The position numbers were made by a program, and so were the translations under genes. DNA of 64,000 bases. Source: an uncultured Tateyamaria sp. (GTDB lineage: Bacteria > Pseudomonadota > Alphaproteobacteria > Rhodobacterales > Rhodobacteraceae). Below the pieces are notes generated by a model. It saw only the letters and a list, made by a program, of their open reading frames with translations, did no database searches and was not told where the DNA came from. The DNA lies in assembly GCF_947504105.1 (NCBI RefSeq), contig NZ_CANNGP010000017.1, positions 1 to 64,000 of the forward strand. Reading direction: 5' to 3'. The number at the start of each line of letters is the position of its first letter. Position 1 is the first letter of the stretch. Shown piece after piece: positions 32,571 through 38,884 of the stretch.

Positions 32571-32818
32571 GCACCAATACACTTGTTAGTCAGAAGAACC
32601 CAAAGTGCAGCAGCCAAAAATGCAGACGTCATGCTTACCCACAATTCCAGAGTAGGCTTTGCGGATTGTTCGGGTGAGAACCCCAGAAACACGCGAAGCA
32701 TTTCGAAGGCACTCAAGTGTTTACCGCGCAAGACCAGAAACGATCTAACCAATACCCCAAACAGGAAAATCACGAAGGGCCAAGCAGCCGTTTCACGGAT
32801 ACATTCTAAAAACGTCAT
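32567..32818 (-). CDS. Small membrane protein between the replication gene and dinB
   Basis: 83 residues with two hydrophobic segments (AAWPFVIFLFGVLVRSFLVL and MTSAFLAAALWVLL). No family recognised. The start ATG overlaps the stop of the DnaA-like initiator gene (32815-32818, ATGA), and its stop overlaps the dinB start (32567-32570), giving a tightly coupled three-gene unit. An open frame runs further upstream inside the initiator gene and is ignored. Function unknown. Confidence 0.65.
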   Translation of the reverse strand: MTFLECIRETAAWPFVIFLFGVLVRSFLVLRGKHLSAFEMLRVFLGFSPEQSAKPTLELWVSMTSAFLAAALWVLLTNKCIGA

Positions 32819-33498
32819 ACGATCACCCGCACCTCGCTCACATCGCCATCCACTTCGCGACACGCCGCCAGCACGCGCCGCTCCAGATGCGTCTGCACAT
32901 AGGCCCCGTGAAAGCGCGACGGCGCCCGCAGGGTCAACCGCCCCCCTGCCCGCTCAACCCGCTCCAGCCCCGCAATCCACGACGCGTACACGCCAGCATC
33001 CTCAGCATGCAGAACCGCCTGGGCCAAGGACCACTCCGTCCCCTTCGACACATCCGGGGCAACCACGGCCCCTTTCACGGGCAAAGGCACCACTTTCGGC
33101 GCCTCCTCCTCCGCAGCCCCCATACGCAACTCAAAATCTGGCCCCACGGCCACCCAATACGCTTCCGTATCAACCAGCACACGCTCCAGATCCAACCCAT
33201 GCTCGGACACACGGCCCCGCGCACCCTGCCGCTTCACGACCAACCAGCCCCGCGCCCGCAGCAACGCCATCTCGCGCTTCACCGTCCGCTCATCCACGGA
33301 CCACAGTCGCGCAATCTCGCGCTGGCCCACGGCCAGCTCGTCCCGCGCCCAGTTGTAGCGCGCCGTGATCAGTGTCATCAGCCGCAGAACGCGCCGCTGC
33401 TCATGCTTGCCCTGCGCCAACGCGAACGCACCCAAGGCTGTCAGAATATCGTATTTGCGCGCAGACGCGCCCCGGCCCACTGGCCTCAGCGTTTGCAT
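32815..33498 (-). CDS. DnaA-like plasmid replication initiator
   Basis: 227 residues from an ATG at 33498 with GAGGG before it; an upstream ATG at 33510 is also possible. The middle holds a winged-helix domain (GQREIARLWSVDERTVKREMALLRARGWLVV). The C-terminal part (WSLAQAVLHAEDAGVYASWIAGLERV, LTLRAPSRFHGAYVQTHLERRVL) resembles the DnaA N-terminal domain. This is the architecture of the 'DnaA-like' replication proteins of Rhodobacterales plasmids. It is divergent from parA-parB across an origin-like region with a DnaA box. Its presence points to an extrachromosomal replicon. Confidence 0.85.
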   Translation of the reverse strand: MQTLRPVGRGASARKYDILTALGAFALAQGKHEQRRVLRLMTLITARYNWARDELAVGQREIARLWSVDERTVKREMALLRARGWLVVKRQGARGRVSEHGLDLERVLVDTEAYWVAVGPDFELRMGAAEEEAPKVVPLPVKGAVVAPDVSKGTEWSLAQAVLHAEDAGVYASWIAGLERVERAGGRLTLRAPSRFHGAYVQTHLERRVLAACREVDGDVSEVRVIV

Positions 33499-33635
33499 CA
33501 CTGCCCTCATTTTCTTTGAATGGTCCGGGCTGCCCCGAACAACACCTGCCAACGGTGGGTTTCCCCGCGGTTCTGGCCGCTTTTCCGTCTCTGCCCCTGA
33601 TTTGCGTCCGAAGCTGCGATTCTGTCAAGGGTGGA

Positions 33636-33695: not shown

Positions 33696-33716
33696 GGGGA
33701 CATACAGTTTGTCCCC
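33696..33716. repeat. Divergent half-palindromes GGGGACA-N7-TGTCCCC
   Basis: The two halves of the 16-bp palindrome appear in reversed order with a 7-base AT-rich spacer. A further single half-site TGTCCCC is at 33762-33768. They may bind the same protein with a different geometry. Confidence 0.6.
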
Positions 33717-33852
33717 TATTCCAGCCCTTTTGTCACCCAATAGATGGCGGAAGGCAAAAACTGTCCCCCCAAATCTGGTCGGTCAACACGAGGGGCGGGT
33801 CCATCACAGAATCACAACGATTGCCCCGGCTTCCATGACGCAACGCCCGATC

Positions 33853-33868
33853 TGTCCCCGCGGGGACA
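33853..33868. repeat. 16-bp palindrome copy 1 (putative parS)
   Basis: TGTCCCCGCGGGGACA, exact. In the origin region upstream of parA. Confidence 0.8.
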
Positions 33869-33931
33869 ACCATATTCCCCTTTTGCTTTTTCCGCAAAAT
33901 CAGCGTAAATCTGGAAATGAGCAGAATTAGC

Positions 33932-33943
33932 GTCCCCACGGGG
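33932..33943. repeat. Degenerate palindrome GTCCCCACGGGG
   Basis: Decayed or variant copy between copies 1 and 2, missing the right outer bases. Confidence 0.5.
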
Positions 33944-33956
33944 CCAAAAAACCACC

Positions 33957-33972
33957 TGTCCCCGCGGGGACA
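33957..33972. repeat. 16-bp palindrome copy 2 (putative parS)
   Basis: TGTCCCCGCGGGGACA, exact, 17 bases before the parA start, so binding here could also repress parAB. Confidence 0.8.
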
Positions 33973-33988
33973 AACGTACAGGCAGCGC

Positions 33989-35293
33989 ATGTTCACGCAC
34001 ACAGACCTCGCCCAACTCCAGGCGCAATCCCTCAAAATGCAGGGCTTCATCCGCCAGCAAACCTACTCTCCCGAGAACGAAAAAACGCTTCGCCGCTTCT
34101 CAAGCTGGGAGGTGGCGGAACTCATTTTCAAAGCCAACCAGAGTACCCTGCGCGGCCGCCTCGGCGCCGACCCCTCCCTGCCCCAAGGCATCGTCGAAGA
34201 AGACGGTCGCCAGCGCTGGTACACGCTCGACGAAATCAACGAGTTGCGCCGTCGCATCAAGGTGAACCGCAAATCGCTCATGCCCCACCGTCCTGCGAAC
34301 AAGCGCGCCATCCGGGCCGCCATCGCCAATTTCAAAGGGGGCGCGGGCAAGTCCACAACAGCCCTCCACTTCGCCCACGCCGCCGCTCTCGACGGCTACC
34401 GCGTGCTCTGCGTCGACTTCGACCCACAAGCCACGCTCAGCCACTCCATGGGCCTCAGCGACGTGGCCGAGGAATACACCGTCTGGGGCATCATGGCCCG
34501 CGATCTGGGGCACGAAACCGATCGCATGAACTCGGCCCTGCGTGGCGCGGAATCCGGCACCGCCCTGCCCCAGCGCAAACTGCCCGCCGCCATCACCGAC
34601 ATGGGGCTGAACGACCTGCGCGCGTCGGACTTCATCAAGCCCACGAACTGGCCCACAATCGATATCGTGCCAAGTTGCGCCAACGCCGCCTTTGTCGAAT
34701 TTGCCTCCGCCCAATATCGCCACATCAACCCCGAATGGTCCTTCTTCGCCGCCGTCTCGCGCTTCCTCGACCAGATCGCGCCCGACACCTATGACCTCAT
34801 CCTCTTCGACTGTCCGCCCGCCATCGGCTACCAGTCCATGAACGCGGTCTTCGCGGCTGACGTGCTCTATATCCCCTCCGGCCCCGGCTACTGGGAATAC
34901 GACTCAACCACGTCTTTCATCGGCCAGCTTTCTGAAGCGCTCGAAGATCTCAGCCGCTTCAACGGCCTTGTCCCCGCGGGGACAATGACCCTGCCCAAGA
35001 CCTTCCTCGACCTGCGCTTCCTGCTCACCCGCTATGAACCGGGCAACGAACTCCATCGCGCCATGCAGGGCGCGTTCCAGAAAGTCTTCGGCGATCGCGT
35101 CTGCGAACACCCGATCGAAATGACCCGCGCTGTCGAACAATCCGGGCGGTTCCTGAGCAGTATCTACGAAATGGACTACCGCGACATGACCCGCGAAACT
35201 TGGCGGCGCGCCCGCGCCTCGTTTGACCGGGCCTATGAAGAATTCAAAACGAACCTGGGAACAGCCTGGGACCAATTGGAGGATGAGGCATGA
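33989..35293 (+). CDS. parA: ParA-family partition ATPase
   Basis: 434 residues from ATG 33989; the frame opens at 33917 but that stretch is operator-like DNA. Plasmid partition ATPase. N-terminal helix-turn-helix of the type used for parAB autorepression (FSSWEVAELIFKANQSTLRGRLG), then the deviant Walker A FKGGAGKSTTALHFAHAA, VDFDPQATLSHSMG and DLILFDCPPAIGYQS. One exact copy of the 16-bp palindrome lies inside the gene (34969-34984) and encodes LVPAGT at residues ~327-332. ATGA-coupled to parB. Confidence 0.93.
   Translation: MFTHTDLAQLQAQSLKMQGFIRQQTYSPENEKTLRRFSSWEVAELIFKANQSTLRGRLGADPSLPQGIVEEDGRQRWYTLDEINELRRRIKVNRKSLMPHRPANKRAIRAAIANFKGGAGKSTTALHFAHAAALDGYRVLCVDFDPQATLSHSMGLSDVAEEYTVWGIMARDLGHETDRMNSALRGAESGTALPQRKLPAAITDMGLNDLRASDFIKPTNWPTIDIVPSCANAAFVEFASAQYRHINPEWSFFAAVSRFLDQIAPDTYDLILFDCPPAIGYQSMNAVFAADVLYIPSGPGYWEYDSTTSFIGQLSEALEDLSRFNGLVPAGTMTLPKTFLDLRFLLTRYEPGNELHRAMQGAFQKVFGDRVCEHPIEMTRAVEQSGRFLSSIYEMDYRDMTRETWRRARASFDRAYEEFKTNLGTAWDQLEDEA
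34969..34984. repeat. 16-bp palindrome copy 3, inside parA
   Basis: TGTCCCCGCGGGGACA, exact, in coding sequence; read as L-VPAG-T. Confidence 0.8.
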
Positions 35294-36339
35294 GCAAACG
35301 CCGCGTATTCGACATCGACTTCGAGCCCGAAGAGGCGGCAGAGGTCCCTGCCCCAGCCGAGGAACCGACGCGCCGTGGACCTATGGCTGCGGCCATTTCT
35401 GAGAACGCTACGGCGCTCAGTGAACGCCACACGGCAGAGGCTGAAATCCGTGCCGAGAATGACCGTCTCGCCCACGAATATGTGTCTCTAAAAAGGGATG
35501 GAGCGATTGTGGCGCGCGTTCCCCTCGGGGACGTGGCGATGCAAAAGCTGACCCGCGACCGCAGCACGAACCGCGACCCGGACCTAGAAGAACTCAAAAC
35601 CTCCATCCGCGATCTCGGCCTGTCGAACCCAATCCAGGTCGAAGACACCGGCGACGGTTACGAACTGATCCAGGGCTTCCGCCGTCTCAGCGCCTATAGA
35701 TCTCTCTACGAGGAAACAGGAGACGACAAATATGCCTCCATCCCCGCCGTCCTCGTGGCCAAGGGCGAGGCGCTCGAAAAACTCTACCGCCGCATGGTCG
35801 ATGAAAACATGGTGCGACGTGACATCTCGTTCGCCGAAATGGGCCAGCTTGCCGCCAGCTATGCCCGCCAGATGGATCTGGAATTGAACGATGCTATCGC
35901 CGTTCTTTTTGCCTCTGCCGGACGACAAAAGCGTCACTACATAGGCAGTTTCAGTCTCTTGATGGACAAACTGGGATCCCGCCTTCAGTTCCCCGAAGCG
36001 ATCCCCCGCGCCCTTGGTCTGAAGCTGATCAAGGCGCTGGAAGAACAACCGCGCACCGCACAGCAACTCAACGTCCTGTTGGAGCATCAAAAGCCCAATG
36101 ATGCGGTGGCTGAGTTGGCAGTGTTGAACAAGGTTGTGGCCCCCAAACCGGTCAGTGAGCAAGCTGCCCCCTCGACCTCCTCCAAGACCACGATCAAGCT
36201 GAACCGCAAGGCTGGTGCGGTGAAGGTCATTGGGGCCAAGGGCAAGATTGAATTGCAGATGAACCGCGACTTCGGTTCAGTGGATCCGCGCAAGCTTGAG
36301 GCGGCGGTTCGGGCATTGCTTGACCAACTCGATCTGTAA
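35290..36339 (+). CDS. parB: ParB-family partition protein
   Basis: 349 residues. Centromere-binding partner of ParA. ParB/Srx N-terminal domain (LTRDRSTNRDPDLEELKTSIRDLGLSNPIQV with YELIQGFRRLSAYRSL, replacing the GERR motif of chromosomal ParB), then the KorB-type helix-turn-helix region (DISFAEMGQLAASYARQMDL, SAGRQKRHYIGSFSLLMDKL) and a C-terminal dimerisation part. A degenerate palindrome (TTCCCCTCGGGGAC, about 35519-35532) lies in its 5' part, and an exact copy directly follows its stop. Its expected ligand is the 16-bp palindrome described here (inference). Confidence 0.92.
   Translation: MSKRRVFDIDFEPEEAAEVPAPAEEPTRRGPMAAAISENATALSERHTAEAEIRAENDRLAHEYVSLKRDGAIVARVPLGDVAMQKLTRDRSTNRDPDLEELKTSIRDLGLSNPIQVEDTGDGYELIQGFRRLSAYRSLYEETGDDKYASIPAVLVAKGEALEKLYRRMVDENMVRRDISFAEMGQLAASYARQMDLELNDAIAVLFASAGRQKRHYIGSFSLLMDKLGSRLQFPEAIPRALGLKLIKALEEQPRTAQQLNVLLEHQKPNDAVAELAVLNKVVAPKPVSEQAAPSTSSKTTIKLNRKAGAVKVIGAKGKIELQMNRDFGSVDPRKLEAAVRALLDQLDL
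35519..35532. repeat. Degenerate palindrome inside parB
   Basis: TTCCCCTCGGGGAC, two central differences from the 16-bp unit; encodes VPLGD. May be chance or a decayed copy. Confidence 0.4.
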
Positions 36340-36341
36340 TC

Positions 36342-36357
36342 TGTCCCCGCGGGGACA
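36342..36357. repeat. 16-bp palindrome copy 4 between parB and bchO
   Basis: TGTCCCCGCGGGGACA, exact, two bases after the parB stop and seven before the convergent bchO stop. Confidence 0.8.
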
Positions 36358-36364
36358 GATGCCG

Positions 36365-37237
36365 CTAATCCAGTTCTTTTGTGATGATATCGGTGATCAA
36401 TCTCACAAAGCTTTCGGGGTCTTCCTCGTGCGCCAGATGACCCAGTTCCGCAAAGTGATGCAGTGTGGCATTGCGCATCCGAGATGCGGCTTTCTCCGAC
36501 ACGTCTGGCGGCACGGTTGTATCTTTTTCACCGACGATGAAATGGACGGTAGATGGATGGTCCGGCAGTCGGGAAAGAAGCGGGTCCAACGCCCATTGCG
36601 CCATCATCAAAAGCGTGCCGTCGACATGGTTTCTATCACCGACCAAGCGGCGATAGAGATCCAGCCCCTCAGCATCCAGATCAGAGCCTGTTGAGCCAAT
36701 GAGAGTCTTGATCCGTTCGGGATTAGACGACGCGCCAGAGAACAGAGACGCGGTGAACGGCAGTACCGCCAATGCCTTGGCCATCACTGGAAATAGAAAT
36801 CCGGCCAGCCCCTTGAACTGCGCCAAGGCGGCGTTGATCCCGATCACCAGTGGTGCGTGTCCCCGCGGGGACAGATCGTTTTCAGCCAGTCGCAGGGCAA
36901 TGGCTGCCCCTGCTGAATGGCCGATGATTGCGTCCGGAGTCCATCCCTCTTGGGCGCACAGCTTGCCAATGTCTTTGGCCATCCGATCAAGCCCGCAACG
37001 ATGCCGCGCGCCAAGCTGTGTGAACCCTTGTCCCGGCAGGTCCAATGCGACCACGTGGTGGTTCTGTGCGAGCGCTGGAATGAGGGCTCGGTAGGAGTGC
37101 GTCGACCCGCCAGCGCCATGCAGCATCAACACCGTTTTGCCGACGCCGCTTTCCTGAATATGCCAACGATGCACGGGTCCTTGTCCCCGCCGGGACAGAT
37201 CGGAGTTGGGCCATGTAAGGATGTGCGCCCAGTCCAT
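36365..37237 (-). CDS. bchO: BchO, alpha/beta hydrolase of magnesium chelatase operon
   Basis: 290 residues. Alpha/beta-hydrolase encoded with bchD and bchI; proposed accessory to magnesium chelatase, exact reaction unproven. Starts MDWAHILTWP as in the family; oxyanion loop VLMLHGAGGSTHSYR, nucleophile elbow IGHSAGAAIAL, acid/His parts VGEKDTTVPP and LGHLAHEEDPESF. Two palindrome copies lie in the gene: one mismatch copy at residues ~14-18 (LSRRGQ) and an exact copy at ~122-127 (LSPRGH). Three bases downstream of bchD. Confidence 0.92.
   Translation of the reverse strand: MDWAHILTWPNSDLSRRGQGPVHRWHIQESGVGKTVLMLHGAGGSTHSYRALIPALAQNHHVVALDLPGQGFTQLGARHRCGLDRMAKDIGKLCAQEGWTPDAIIGHSAGAAIALRLAENDLSPRGHAPLVIGINAALAQFKGLAGFLFPVMAKALAVLPFTASLFSGASSNPERIKTLIGSTGSDLDAEGLDLYRRLVGDRNHVDGTLLMMAQWALDPLLSRLPDHPSTVHFIVGEKDTTVPPDVSEKAASRMRNATLHHFAELGHLAHEEDPESFVRLITDIITKELD
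36858..36873. repeat. 16-bp palindrome copy 5, inside bchO
   Basis: TGTCCCCGCGGGGACA, exact; read on the minus strand as LSPRGH after AEND, in a loop following the nucleophile helix. Confidence 0.8.
37183..37198. repeat. 16-bp palindrome copy 6 (one mismatch), inside bchO 5' end
   Basis: TGTCCCCGCCGGGACA; one central G to C change. Encodes LSRRGQ near the BchO N-terminus. Confidence 0.75.
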
Positions 37238-37240
37238 GTT

Positions 37241-38884
37241 CTAGCCATCCAAGGCGGCGTTTACCGCATTGTTTAAACGCTGCGCATCTGCGCGGGGCAA
37301 GGCAACGTAAGATGCGTCCAGCGAGCGGCTCAAGTCCTGCAAGGCAGGTTGGGGACGGTTGGACATATCAATGACCAGCGCGGCCGTTCCCGAGCTGCGC
37401 AATGCCGACGCCATCGCGGTGGCGTCTTGCGCGGCCTGCGCCCGGTTTGCTTGGCCGTCGAGCGTGATATTTGCGCGTCCGTCGGTGATCAGAATGATGG
37501 TCGGTGTCAGTCCCCTGGCAACGCTTTGCTGCGCGAGCAGGAGGGCGTGTTGCAGCCCGGACGCGAGAGGTGTGCCGCCTCCGCCGGGCAGGGCAGAGAG
37601 CCGCCGTTTGGTCTGGACCAGGAAACGGGTGGGGGGCAGCAGGGTTTCAGCCTCGGTACCCCTGAATGAGATGAGCGCGACATGGTCGCGGCTGGCATAG
37701 GCATCTGCGAGCAGGAGTTCGATGGCGCCCTTGGCCTCGCCCAGTCTGGACACGGCGGCCGAGCCGGAAGCGTCGACGGTGAAGATCAGGAGGCGGTCGG
37801 ATTGTTCGGCGTAGCGTTTGAGGCGGATGTCGGACGGGCGGATGAGGAGGCCGGAGCGGTTCGGCTGCTGTTGGCGGCGGAGGGGTTGCCACGGGGCGGC
37901 GGCGCGCAGCGTGGCGATCAGGTCGATACGAGAGGTGCCGTCGAGCCGTCCGGGACGCGAGGGTAGGGGGCGGCCGCGGCGGTTGCTGGTGCGCTTTTGA
38001 CCCGCGCCTGCACCGCCGGATGTGCGGGTTGTCCCCGCGGGGACAAGCCCGTTTAGGAGGTCTGCTGGGAGCAGGGATTTGACGGTTTCGACCAGCATAT
38101 CTGTGTCCGGGAATGCGTCGTTTTCCTGGTTGTCCCCGCGGGGACAGTCATCATTTGAAGGTGGGGGAGGGGGGCTTTCCCGGTCCTCTATGTCCTCTGG
38201 GATCATGGTTGCGCGGTGCGGATAAACGAGGGTTGCGGCAACCTCGACGTCGATGTCTGTGAGGTGCTCTCGGCCCATGTAGTGCGCATGGGCGCGCGCG
38301 GTGCGGAGGGCGAGGGTGGGAGCCCTGAGGGATGCGATGCCGAAGCGGGTGGCGAGCAGGGTGAGCTGTAAGATCGCGTCGGCTGTTTTTACCGCTGTCC
38401 CCGCGGGGACAGATTGGGTTGCCCCCGCGGGGACAGATGGTTTTCGCCCTTCTGGTGACAGGTGGAAGGCGCAACGATCGGCGAGGGGATCGGGGGTGCG
38501 TTCGTCGGGTTTGATCCCTTCGTCCAGGAGCAAAAAGCCCTGTGTTAGAGACTGATCCGTGAGTTGAGAGAGTTTGGCTGCGAGGGCTGGCGGGCAGCGT
38601 TCGGCCATAGGGAGTTGAGCTATGCAAGGGATGCTGAAAAAATATTTATTTTCAATGACTTGTGTAGATGAAAGCGTGGCGCTTAAGTCAATGCCGCCAA
38701 AGAGTTGTTCGTCTGAGATGGTGACGGGCATTTTGCGGATGGGCAGGGAAGGGGTGAAGCCTGCCAGTAGCGCGTCGCGGTCGGGGCTGGCGCGCATGCG
38801 GATGACTGCGCCGCCAAGGCCTGCGGGGTCGAGGGCCAGGAGGCGCAGGGCGAGGGCCGCGTTGTGCCAGCTTTCGGCTGTCAT
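37241..38884 (-). CDS. bchD: Magnesium chelatase subunit D
   Basis: 547 residues. AAA+-like platform subunit that docks BchI to BchH. N-terminal AAA-like domain without a proper Walker A, a long acidic/Pro-rich linker (PPPPPSNDD), then a C-terminal von Willebrand A domain with the MIDAS motif TVDASGSAAVSRLGEAKGA, ALISFRGTEAE, GGGGTPLASGL and ILITDGRANI. Four palindrome copies lie in the gene: two adjacent ones at residues ~150-163 (VPAGATQSVPAGT), one at ~246-251 (DCPRGD) and one at ~280-285 (LVPAGT), all in linker-like parts. First gene of bchD-bchO. Confidence 0.94.
   Translation of the reverse strand: MTAESWHNAALALRLLALDPAGLGGAVIRMRASPDRDALLAGFTPSLPIRKMPVTISDEQLFGGIDLSATLSSTQVIENKYFFSIPCIAQLPMAERCPPALAAKLSQLTDQSLTQGFLLLDEGIKPDERTPDPLADRCAFHLSPEGRKPSVPAGATQSVPAGTAVKTADAILQLTLLATRFGIASLRAPTLALRTARAHAHYMGREHLTDIDVEVAATLVYPHRATMIPEDIEDRESPPPPPSNDDCPRGDNQENDAFPDTDMLVETVKSLLPADLLNGLVPAGTTRTSGGAGAGQKRTSNRRGRPLPSRPGRLDGTSRIDLIATLRAAAPWQPLRRQQQPNRSGLLIRPSDIRLKRYAEQSDRLLIFTVDASGSAAVSRLGEAKGAIELLLADAYASRDHVALISFRGTEAETLLPPTRFLVQTKRRLSALPGGGGTPLASGLQHALLLAQQSVARGLTPTIILITDGRANITLDGQANRAQAAQDATAMASALRSSGTAALVIDMSNRPQPALQDLSRSLDASYVALPRADAQRLNNAVNAALDG
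38030..38045. repeat. 16-bp palindrome copy 7, inside bchD
   Basis: TGTCCCCGCGGGGACA, exact; encodes LVPAGT in the linker before the vWA domain. Confidence 0.8.
38131..38146. repeat. 16-bp palindrome copy 8, inside bchD
   Basis: TGTCCCCGCGGGGACA, exact; encodes CPRGD in the acidic linker. Confidence 0.8.
38396..38411. repeat. 16-bp palindrome copy 9, inside bchD
   Basis: TGTCCCCGCGGGGACA, exact; encodes SVPAGT. It starts 24 bases before copy 10. Confidence 0.8.
38420..38435. repeat. 16-bp palindrome copy 10 (one mismatch), inside bchD
   Basis: TGCCCCCGCGGGGACA; single T to C difference. Forms a tandem with copy 9, giving VPAGATQSVPAGT in BchD. Confidence 0.75.

Follow-up and report, generated by a model that had tools for sequence, protein, structure and literature searches.

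The locus described here raises the question of what is read by a partition protein encoded among photosynthesis genes, and where in the genome it is read. The window, that is, the whole stretch of 64,000 nucleotides that was analysed, comes from an uncultured Tateyamaria sp. (assembly GCF_947504105.1, contig NZ_CANNGP010000017.1) and carries repeated copies of a 16-bp palindrome, TGTCCCCGCGGGGACA, around the genes parA and parB and inside the photosynthesis genes bchO and bchD. This palindrome is almost certainly parS, the site of the neighbouring ParB in the ParABS system of a photosynthesis plasmid. The same 16-mer is also dispersed over the chromosome, and it is very likely that the same ParB reads these copies as well. 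As a whole, the data are likely best explained by the recruitment of a plasmid ParB to a chromosome-wide role resembling that of Noc. The array, the covariation of ParB and site, their co-occurrence across genomes, the selection on chromosomal copies and the ParBs without a neighbouring parA were all computed directly. Genomes, contigs and loci are designated below by G, C and L numbers where they must be told apart.

The palindrome array in the window

Eight exact and two one-mismatch copies of TGTCCCCGCGGGGACA lie within 4.6 kb of the 64-kb window. At up to three mismatches 11 matches were observed, against a mean of 0.69 and a maximum of 5 in 100 shuffles, and at this threshold the window holds no match beyond the 11 of the array. 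A chance origin of the array was ruled out by the shuffles and by reversed-pattern controls. The putative parS copies, with what was found at the aligned positions of other genomes, are as follows:

33853..33868, exact copy upstream of parA; none at the aligned position outside Tateyamaria
33931..33946, degenerate copy with 3 mismatches
33957..33972, exact copy, upstream of parA if the start annotated in pDOK1-4-3 is used; none at the aligned position in other genera
34969..34984, exact copy in parA; aligned exact copy in R. ponti, R. litoralis, Thalassococcus sp. S3 and G308
35518 (start), degenerate copy with 4 mismatches
36342..36357, exact copy between parB and bchO; none at the aligned position outside Tateyamaria
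36858..36873, exact copy in bchO; aligned copy exact in R. ponti, Thalassococcus sp. S3 and G308, with one mismatch in R. litoralis
37182..37197, one-mismatch copy in bchO; none at the aligned position in other genera
38030..38045, exact copy in bchD; aligned copy exact in R. ponti, Thalassococcus sp. S3 and G308, with one mismatch in R. litoralis
38131..38146, exact copy in bchD; none at the aligned position in other genera
38396..38411, exact copy in bchD; aligned exact copy in R. litoralis, Thalassococcus sp. S3 and G308
38420..38435, one-mismatch copy in bchD; aligned exact copy in R. ponti and Thalassococcus sp. S3

An exact aligned copy at 38396 and/or 38420 is thus present in all four of R. 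ponti, R. litoralis, Thalassococcus sp. S3 and G308, and the flanks of the array sites are 67–68% identical to those of the other genera. Since several sites lie inside parA, bchO and bchD, centromere and pigment genes share DNA. The sites in these three genes that are aligned in other genera indicate that this overlap is partly older than Tateyamaria and partly not.

A preliminary description of this DNA had given the same eight exact positions, had reported no copies elsewhere in the window and had seen the array reach into bchO (here 36858 and 37182) and bchD (38030, 38131, 38396 and 38420), all of which was borne out. Its one-mismatch copy at 38420 stands, but the one placed at 37183 was found at 37182. 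Likewise, its degenerate copies are real but lie one base earlier, at 33931 rather than 33932 and at 35518 rather than 35519.

A proposed one-residue recognition code

By using ParB alignment, 410 relatives were found in a scan of named genomes; the best 80 loci were analysed, and 76 of them were readable. In these best 80 of 410, the residue preceding the QKR motif of the putative recognition helix varies together with the outer bases of the local palindrome. An R is accompanied by TGT in 51 loci and by mixed CGT/TGT in 2, a P by TTT in 11 of 11 and a K by GTT in 7 of 7; Y goes with CTT in 4 loci and with no such palindrome in 3, an A with TTT in 1, and 1 locus was unread. The mutual information between residue and palindrome was reached by none of 10,000 permutations. 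In a tree of the 76 readable loci, built with the residue masked, the residue changes six times and the palindrome five (parsimony counts, unread and empty labels left out), so that the match does not reflect one shared ancestry. The ParB of the window, whose putative helix reads ...ASAGRQKRHYI in the alignment, belongs to the R class. A P-loop motif test placed ParA upstream in 76 of the 80 named loci; among the four that failed it, L267 has no parA there, L323 has a fused open reading frame (ORF), and L337 and L339 are cut by a contig end.

Among 38 further loci, the exact 16-mer lies within 3 kb of parB in 26; there is a class variant in 8, only imperfect TGT-type sites in 3 and none in 1. 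Twelve ParB-positive family genomes lack the exact 16-mer, and in eight of them a variant palindrome occurs at the parB locus, namely TTTCCCCGCGGGGAAA (G070, G147, G317, G174), CTTCCCCGCGGGGAAG (G100, G181) or GTTCCCCGCGGGGAAC of the K class (G150, G287). G118, G159 and G377 have only the imperfect TGT-type sites, and no site was read in G314. The motif pattern misread or failed at 4 of the 38 loci (L088, L106, L107, L108) and at 1 of the 80 (L294). For Caulobacter ParB and Noc, parts of PMC7383237 describe four interface residues that set the specificity for parS or the Noc-binding site (NBS), with R173/Q158 deciding the base 1 contact.

The proposal of the preliminary description that the palindrome is parS therefore gains in strength, as the palindrome tracks ParB, changes with the putative recognition helix residue and is kept at some sites in other genera. 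A one-residue recognition code is hereby offered for a plasmid family.

A separate palindrome was also noticed: two copies of the perfect palindrome GTTTCGCGCGCGAAAC lie near a different parB homologue on contig C8 of G002 (L067, 9043 and 10143), and it may be the parS of another plasmid type.

Copies outside the parB array

In the source genome (G000), 57 exact copies and 85 copies at up to two mismatches were counted, against 0 and 3 for the reversed pattern. The palindrome had been taken as restricted to this replicon, which the count contradicts, and many copies over the whole genome had been named in advance as evidence against parS. Such copies do exist, yet none of the searched genomes has them without a ParB relative, and they therefore extend the parS reading instead of refuting it.

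Within the genus, 20 Tateyamaria genomes were compared, G000 included and G002 treated as T. omphalii. All 14 genomes with a ParB ortholog (at least 67% identity) have the exact 16-mer, and none of the 6 without one has it (Fisher 2.6e-5); two of these 6 have distant homologues only (32–35%). Exact copies number 51–95 in eleven of the ParB-positive genomes, 22 in G014 and 2 each in G006 and G011; outside the parB array (truncated at a contig end in G004 and G007) they number 43–85 in the eleven and 15 in G014, with none in G006 or G011. Decayed remnants in the six congeners without ParB were looked for and rejected, near matches numbering 0–3 against 0–4 for the control. The spread inside the genus may go back to one origin or to two: in a tree of two genes, G005 and G018 stand apart from a clade of nine, with genomes without ParB in between.

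The association also holds across the family: of the 394 genomes sampled, the 16-mer is found in 34, a ParB at E ≤ 1e-90 in 42 and both in 30 (P 5e-31). The other four genomes with the 16-mer (G106, G158, G289, G409) encode weaker ParB homologues, 43–50% identical, and have the palindrome within parB or at most 0.4 kb from it. Outside Tateyamaria, large counts in these 394 genomes were confined to G106 (79 exact) and G289 (62 exact), the next being 15. In Tateyamaria and in these two other genomes with a ParB relative, the 16-mer stands at about 43–86 places outside the array. Genome-wide counts with the class-wide pattern were made for 50 of the 80 named loci: Actibacterium sp. 188UL27-1, which is G106 (100% ParB match), has 89 copies and the other 49 genomes have 1–17, and in 34 of the 50 every copy is inside the parB locus. 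The spread appears graded, from the parB locus only (34 of 50) through 7 outside copies in G020, 15 in G014 and 43–85 in eleven Tateyamaria to the two ParBs without a neighbouring parA.

Two smaller observations concern these copies. In G020, 7 of the 10 copies lie outside the parB contig; five of these seven were examined (L368–L372), and all five are intergenic, possibly an early spread. Site pairs at a spacing of 30 bp occur in G289 (L092, 1828/1858) and G012 (L093, 1709/1739), two genomes of different genera, in differing surroundings, as if pairing were favoured.

Selection on chromosomal copies

T. omphalii is the genome that shows directly which copies are chromosomal, most of the others being drafts. 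Its total of 55 copies consists of 45 on the 3.86-Mb chromosome and 10 on the photosynthesis plasmid, which leaves none for the other replicons (about 0.37 Mb, 0 copies, P 0.013; genome size from parts of PMC6739100). Twenty of the 45 chromosomal sites are identical at the orthologous place in G000, although the flanks are 80.2% identical and only 6.1% of flank 16-mers are unchanged between the two genomes (P 3e-13). Of the 49 sites that G000 has apart from the array in the window, 42 entered this comparison, so that at least 20 of the 45 are shared.

Two genes were traced through all 20 Tateyamaria genomes, together with 570 flanking windows of 16 columns each. In a carbon-nitrogen hydrolase gene (nitrilase family) the 16-mer is exact in nine genomes, none of the 570 flank windows being invariant, and the other eleven, including all six without ParB, stand at 5–10 mismatches. 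Nine of these eleven encode Gly-Pro-Asp-Gly, which the site turns into Cys-Pro-Arg-Gly. In obg the 16-mer is exact in eight genomes, with one mismatch in three and 4–7 mismatches in nine, and 1 of 570 flank windows is invariant. No indel was found at either site in the 20 genomes, which led to the rejection of the insertion of a mobile palindrome at these two genes. Since codons were replaced and no indel was left, both sites were made by point substitutions and kept. The traced chromosomal copies are held by purifying selection.

Because the dispersed copies agree exactly with the specificity of this ParB and follow its distribution over the phylogeny, they are read here as further sites of the protein. 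Given the dispersal of the 16-mer over the chromosome and the purifying selection on the traced copies, ParB very probably binds the whole chromosome.

ParBs without a neighbouring parA

No parA adjoins the parB genes of G106 and G289, whose products are also without the N-terminal RRGPMAAAISENA region of the other aligned ParBs, a region that probably contacts ParA. The parB gene of G106 adjoins bchO and has only 3 sites near it. In G289 it adjoins repA, repB and repC on a contig that also carries bchO, bchD and bchI. ParB is consequently linked to photosynthesis genes in all three lineages with spread copies (Tateyamaria, G106 and G289). That two genomes have kept ParB together with its sites, with no parA next to parB, suggests that the protein serves its host in more than partition, comparable to how Noc arose.

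These two loci also modify the earlier suggestion that the partition site locks the photosynthesis genes to this replicon. A strict lock to this replicon type is too strong, as a ParB relative shares a contig with repABC and bchO/D/I in G289 and stands beside bchO without an adjacent parA in Actibacterium sp. 188UL27-1. For Sulfitobacter guttiformis, parts of PMC6052148 describe a cluster in which another replicon type has taken the place of the DnaA-like module.

On a 5.7-kb contig of G106, a ParA 58% identical to that of the window stands with a different ParB (34%), so that partners seem to have been shuffled (contigs C17 and C35; L075, L077, L347).

What the dispersed sites may do

Noc of Firmicutes is the well-studied chromosome-wide relative of ParB, and represents an old event. 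By analogy, the ParB described here would load at the dispersed sites, probably as a cytidine triphosphate-dependent clamp, and would decorate the nucleoid as Noc does in Bacillus, with a structural or cell-cycle role at the scale of the chromosome. In most relatives the sites are near parB; in Tateyamaria and in G106 and G289 the protein would have been recruited from the plasmid to a chromosome-wide role. Whether that role is Noc-like or architectural, as opposed to a tether or something else, is a matter of about even chances.

Several observations weigh against such a recruitment or against its Noc-like form. Sites of Noc and SlmA are rarer in the terminus region (Ter), according to parts of PMC4726725, unlike those of the T. 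omphalii chromosome, whose Ter quarter holds 16 sites where 11.2 are expected (terminus at about 1.45 Mb, a coarse estimate by GC skew of 20 samples only). This lack of depletion speaks against nucleoid occlusion of the classical type, and a Noc of that type, with sites depleted in Ter, was discarded for T. omphalii. The NCBIfam Noc model gives 29.7 bits for the window protein, 36.3 for that of G106 and 17.6 for that of G289, far below its cut-off of 315. Tateyamaria itself keeps ParA beside ParB, and the 58% identical ParA on another contig of G106, beside a different ParB, means that the G106 protein could still borrow a ParA. There is also a difference between lineages, 12 of 17 examined sites being genic in Actibacterium against 41 of 87 in Tateyamaria. 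Finally, G006 and G011 encode ParBs 70–73% identical yet have no exact copy outside the array, and 49 of the 50 named genomes with parB have only 1–17 copies. ParB alone is therefore insufficient for the spread, and a host-side change or a long residence is needed.

The alternative that survives best, although unlikely, is a tether: by binding parS copies on the chromosome, ParB would link the photosynthesis plasmid to the nucleoid, and the plasmid would move along with the chromosome. The confinement of dispersed copies to genomes with a ParB relative fits such a tether, as does the presence of sites on the chromosome and photosynthesis plasmid of T. omphalii and on no other replicon (P 0.013), and contacts between origins via ParB and RepB in Agrobacterium fabrum (cited in PMC13342612, in the part available) offer a precedent. 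It is less easily reconciled with Actibacterium sp. 188UL27-1, which keeps ParB and 79 exact copies without parA beside parB and with 3 sites near it. Moreover, the spacing of the sites along the T. omphalii chromosome cannot be told from a random one (coefficient of variation 0.955, P 0.495), and this unclustered spread amounts to more sites than a tether should need. As an aside, the first 1.0 Mb of the G002 chromosome holds only 5 of its 45 sites.

Less probable still is control of transcription, in which ParB clamps at dispersed sites would regulate nearby chromosomal genes as KorB and VirB do; such ParB-family regulators exist (parts of PMC11790492 and PMC10770331). This question was approached through the context of 87 sites in two Tateyamaria genomes, as judged, like that of the Actibacterium sites above, by an own codon-usage gene caller trained on T. 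omphalii. Intergenic DNA is enriched, as regulation would have it: it holds 45 of the 87 sites and makes up about 14% of the background. Yet 41 sites are genic (background 83%) and 14 lie between convergent genes (2%), and only 3 lie between divergent genes (3.8%), so that regions containing promoters only are not favoured; 28 lie between tandem genes (8%) and 1 at a stretch edge.

A small probability falls to the view that the dispersed copies have nothing to do with ParB and represent a HIP1-like motif, a small mobile palindrome or the site of some other DNA-binding protein. Bacteria do have dispersed palindromes that arose in other ways, but the six congeners without the ortholog have no copy and no near matches above the control, and at the two traced genes the 16-mer takes the place of codons already there and no indel accompanies it, which speaks against insertion. 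That the copies are passive scars, neutral leftovers of plasmid recombination, is scarcely credible in spite of their exact match to the plasmid site, for their flanks align as orthologous DNA and the copies stay identical while these flanks diverge to 80%.

To the recruitment of the plasmid ParB to the chromosome a fuller scenario can tentatively be attached, with somewhat less than an even chance of being right. Plasmid ParBs linked to the photosynthesis gene cluster may have been captured more than once by host chromosomes, where dozens of selected parS sites evolved, one of them changing residues of a conserved protein, and ParB may have become a second, Noc-like organiser that outlasted the loss of the adjacent parA and of the plasmid initiator. 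If true, the photosynthesis plasmid would be indispensable for cell-cycle reasons unrelated to photosynthesis, a possible non-metabolic reason why its loss may be difficult. The proposal is testable in cultivable marine bacteria.

Comparison with known systems

The locus shares with the DnaA-like I plasmids of Rhodobacterales a parA-parB pair beside a replication module within the photosynthesis gene cluster, and multiple perfect palindromes around parB; a central position of the module in the cluster is described in parts of PMC6052148. It differs in that sites lie within bchO and bchD coding sequence and on the Tateyamaria chromosome.

With Noc of Bacillus it has in common a ParB-family protein and a chromosome-dispersed palindrome, the 43–86 copies outside the array standing next to around 70 NBS in B. 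subtilis (PMC4726725, in part), as well as the lack of parA beside parB in G106 and G289. The T. omphalii sites are not depleted in Ter, however, and Tateyamaria still has ParA beside ParB. Orphan ParBs, common and widespread according to parts of PMC12704722, have neither a ParA partner nor a ParA-binding motif, as may be true of the G106 and G289 proteins; here the proteins can be traced to a plasmid ParB family with a known site, and the dispersed sites are visible.

The RepABC parS consensus, GTTNNNNGCNNNNAAC (PMC9040568, in part), is fitted by the K-class palindrome GTTCCCCGCGGGGAAC, and the ParA of the window is distantly RepA-like. In contrast, the TGT class of the window is off this consensus, and the RepA and RepB scores stay below the equivalog cut-offs. 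KorB and VirB resemble the present case as ParB-like DNA-binding proteins used away from partition, but no promoter-only enrichment was observed here.

No description of the TGTCCCCGCGGGGACA site or of its chromosomal spread was found in the openly licensed literature, and the word 'palindrome' is absent from the available parts of the photosynthesis-plasmid papers PMC6739100 and PMC6052148. Diagnostic palindromes of repABC plasmids are described (parts of PMC9426580 and PMC3910702). This suggests that the novelty lies in the chromosomal spread and in the recognition code, not in the existence of plasmid palindromes.

Genes and half-sites around the array

The neighbours claimed in the preliminary description were confirmed, with the reservation that the DnaA_N match of the initiator is below its cut-off:

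32815..33552, minus strand, probable DnaA-like replication initiator (Pfam DnaA_N, 21.5 bits, E 2e-4, curated cut-off 24.6)
33696..33716, between rep and parA, everted half-sites GGGGACA (33696) and TGTCCCC (33710), by string search
33762..33768, half-site TGTCCCC, by string search
33917..35293, plus strand, parA, ORF of 458 aa with its true start probably at about 33989 (Pfam AAA_31, E 4e-25)
35290..36339, plus strand, parB, 349 aa (Pfam ParB_N, 26.3 bits, equal to the cut-off)
36365..37237, minus strand, bchO (TIGR03056, 331 bits)
37241..38884, minus strand, bchD (NF009943, 624.5 bits)

The initiator has no NCBIfam match; the corresponding plasmid module of T. omphalii DOK1-4 is named DnaA-like I in the available part of PMC6739100. 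ORFs and Pfam matches place parA and parB next to each other in one operon. The parA start was taken from the parA annotation in T. omphalii pDOK1-4-3 (1305 bases), and against NCBIfam RepA the protein scores 212.6 bits, below the equivalog cut-off of 348. In a plasmid search that gave 606 records with a ParB match, of which 4 were examined, the closest plasmid relative of the window ParB was that of Tateyamaria omphalii DOK1-4 pDOK1-4-3 (91% identical). In a search of PDB sequences, only the N-terminal part of the ParB profile matched, to ParB, Spo0J, Noc and sulfiredoxin chains (E 6e-7 to 3e-3). Beyond bchD, bchI is supported by NCBIfam.

The half-sites, which the preliminary description had also reported, were recovered where it had placed them. 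Lying at 33696–33768 in the intergenic region between rep and parA, they may be part of the plasmid origin or take part in the control of parAB.

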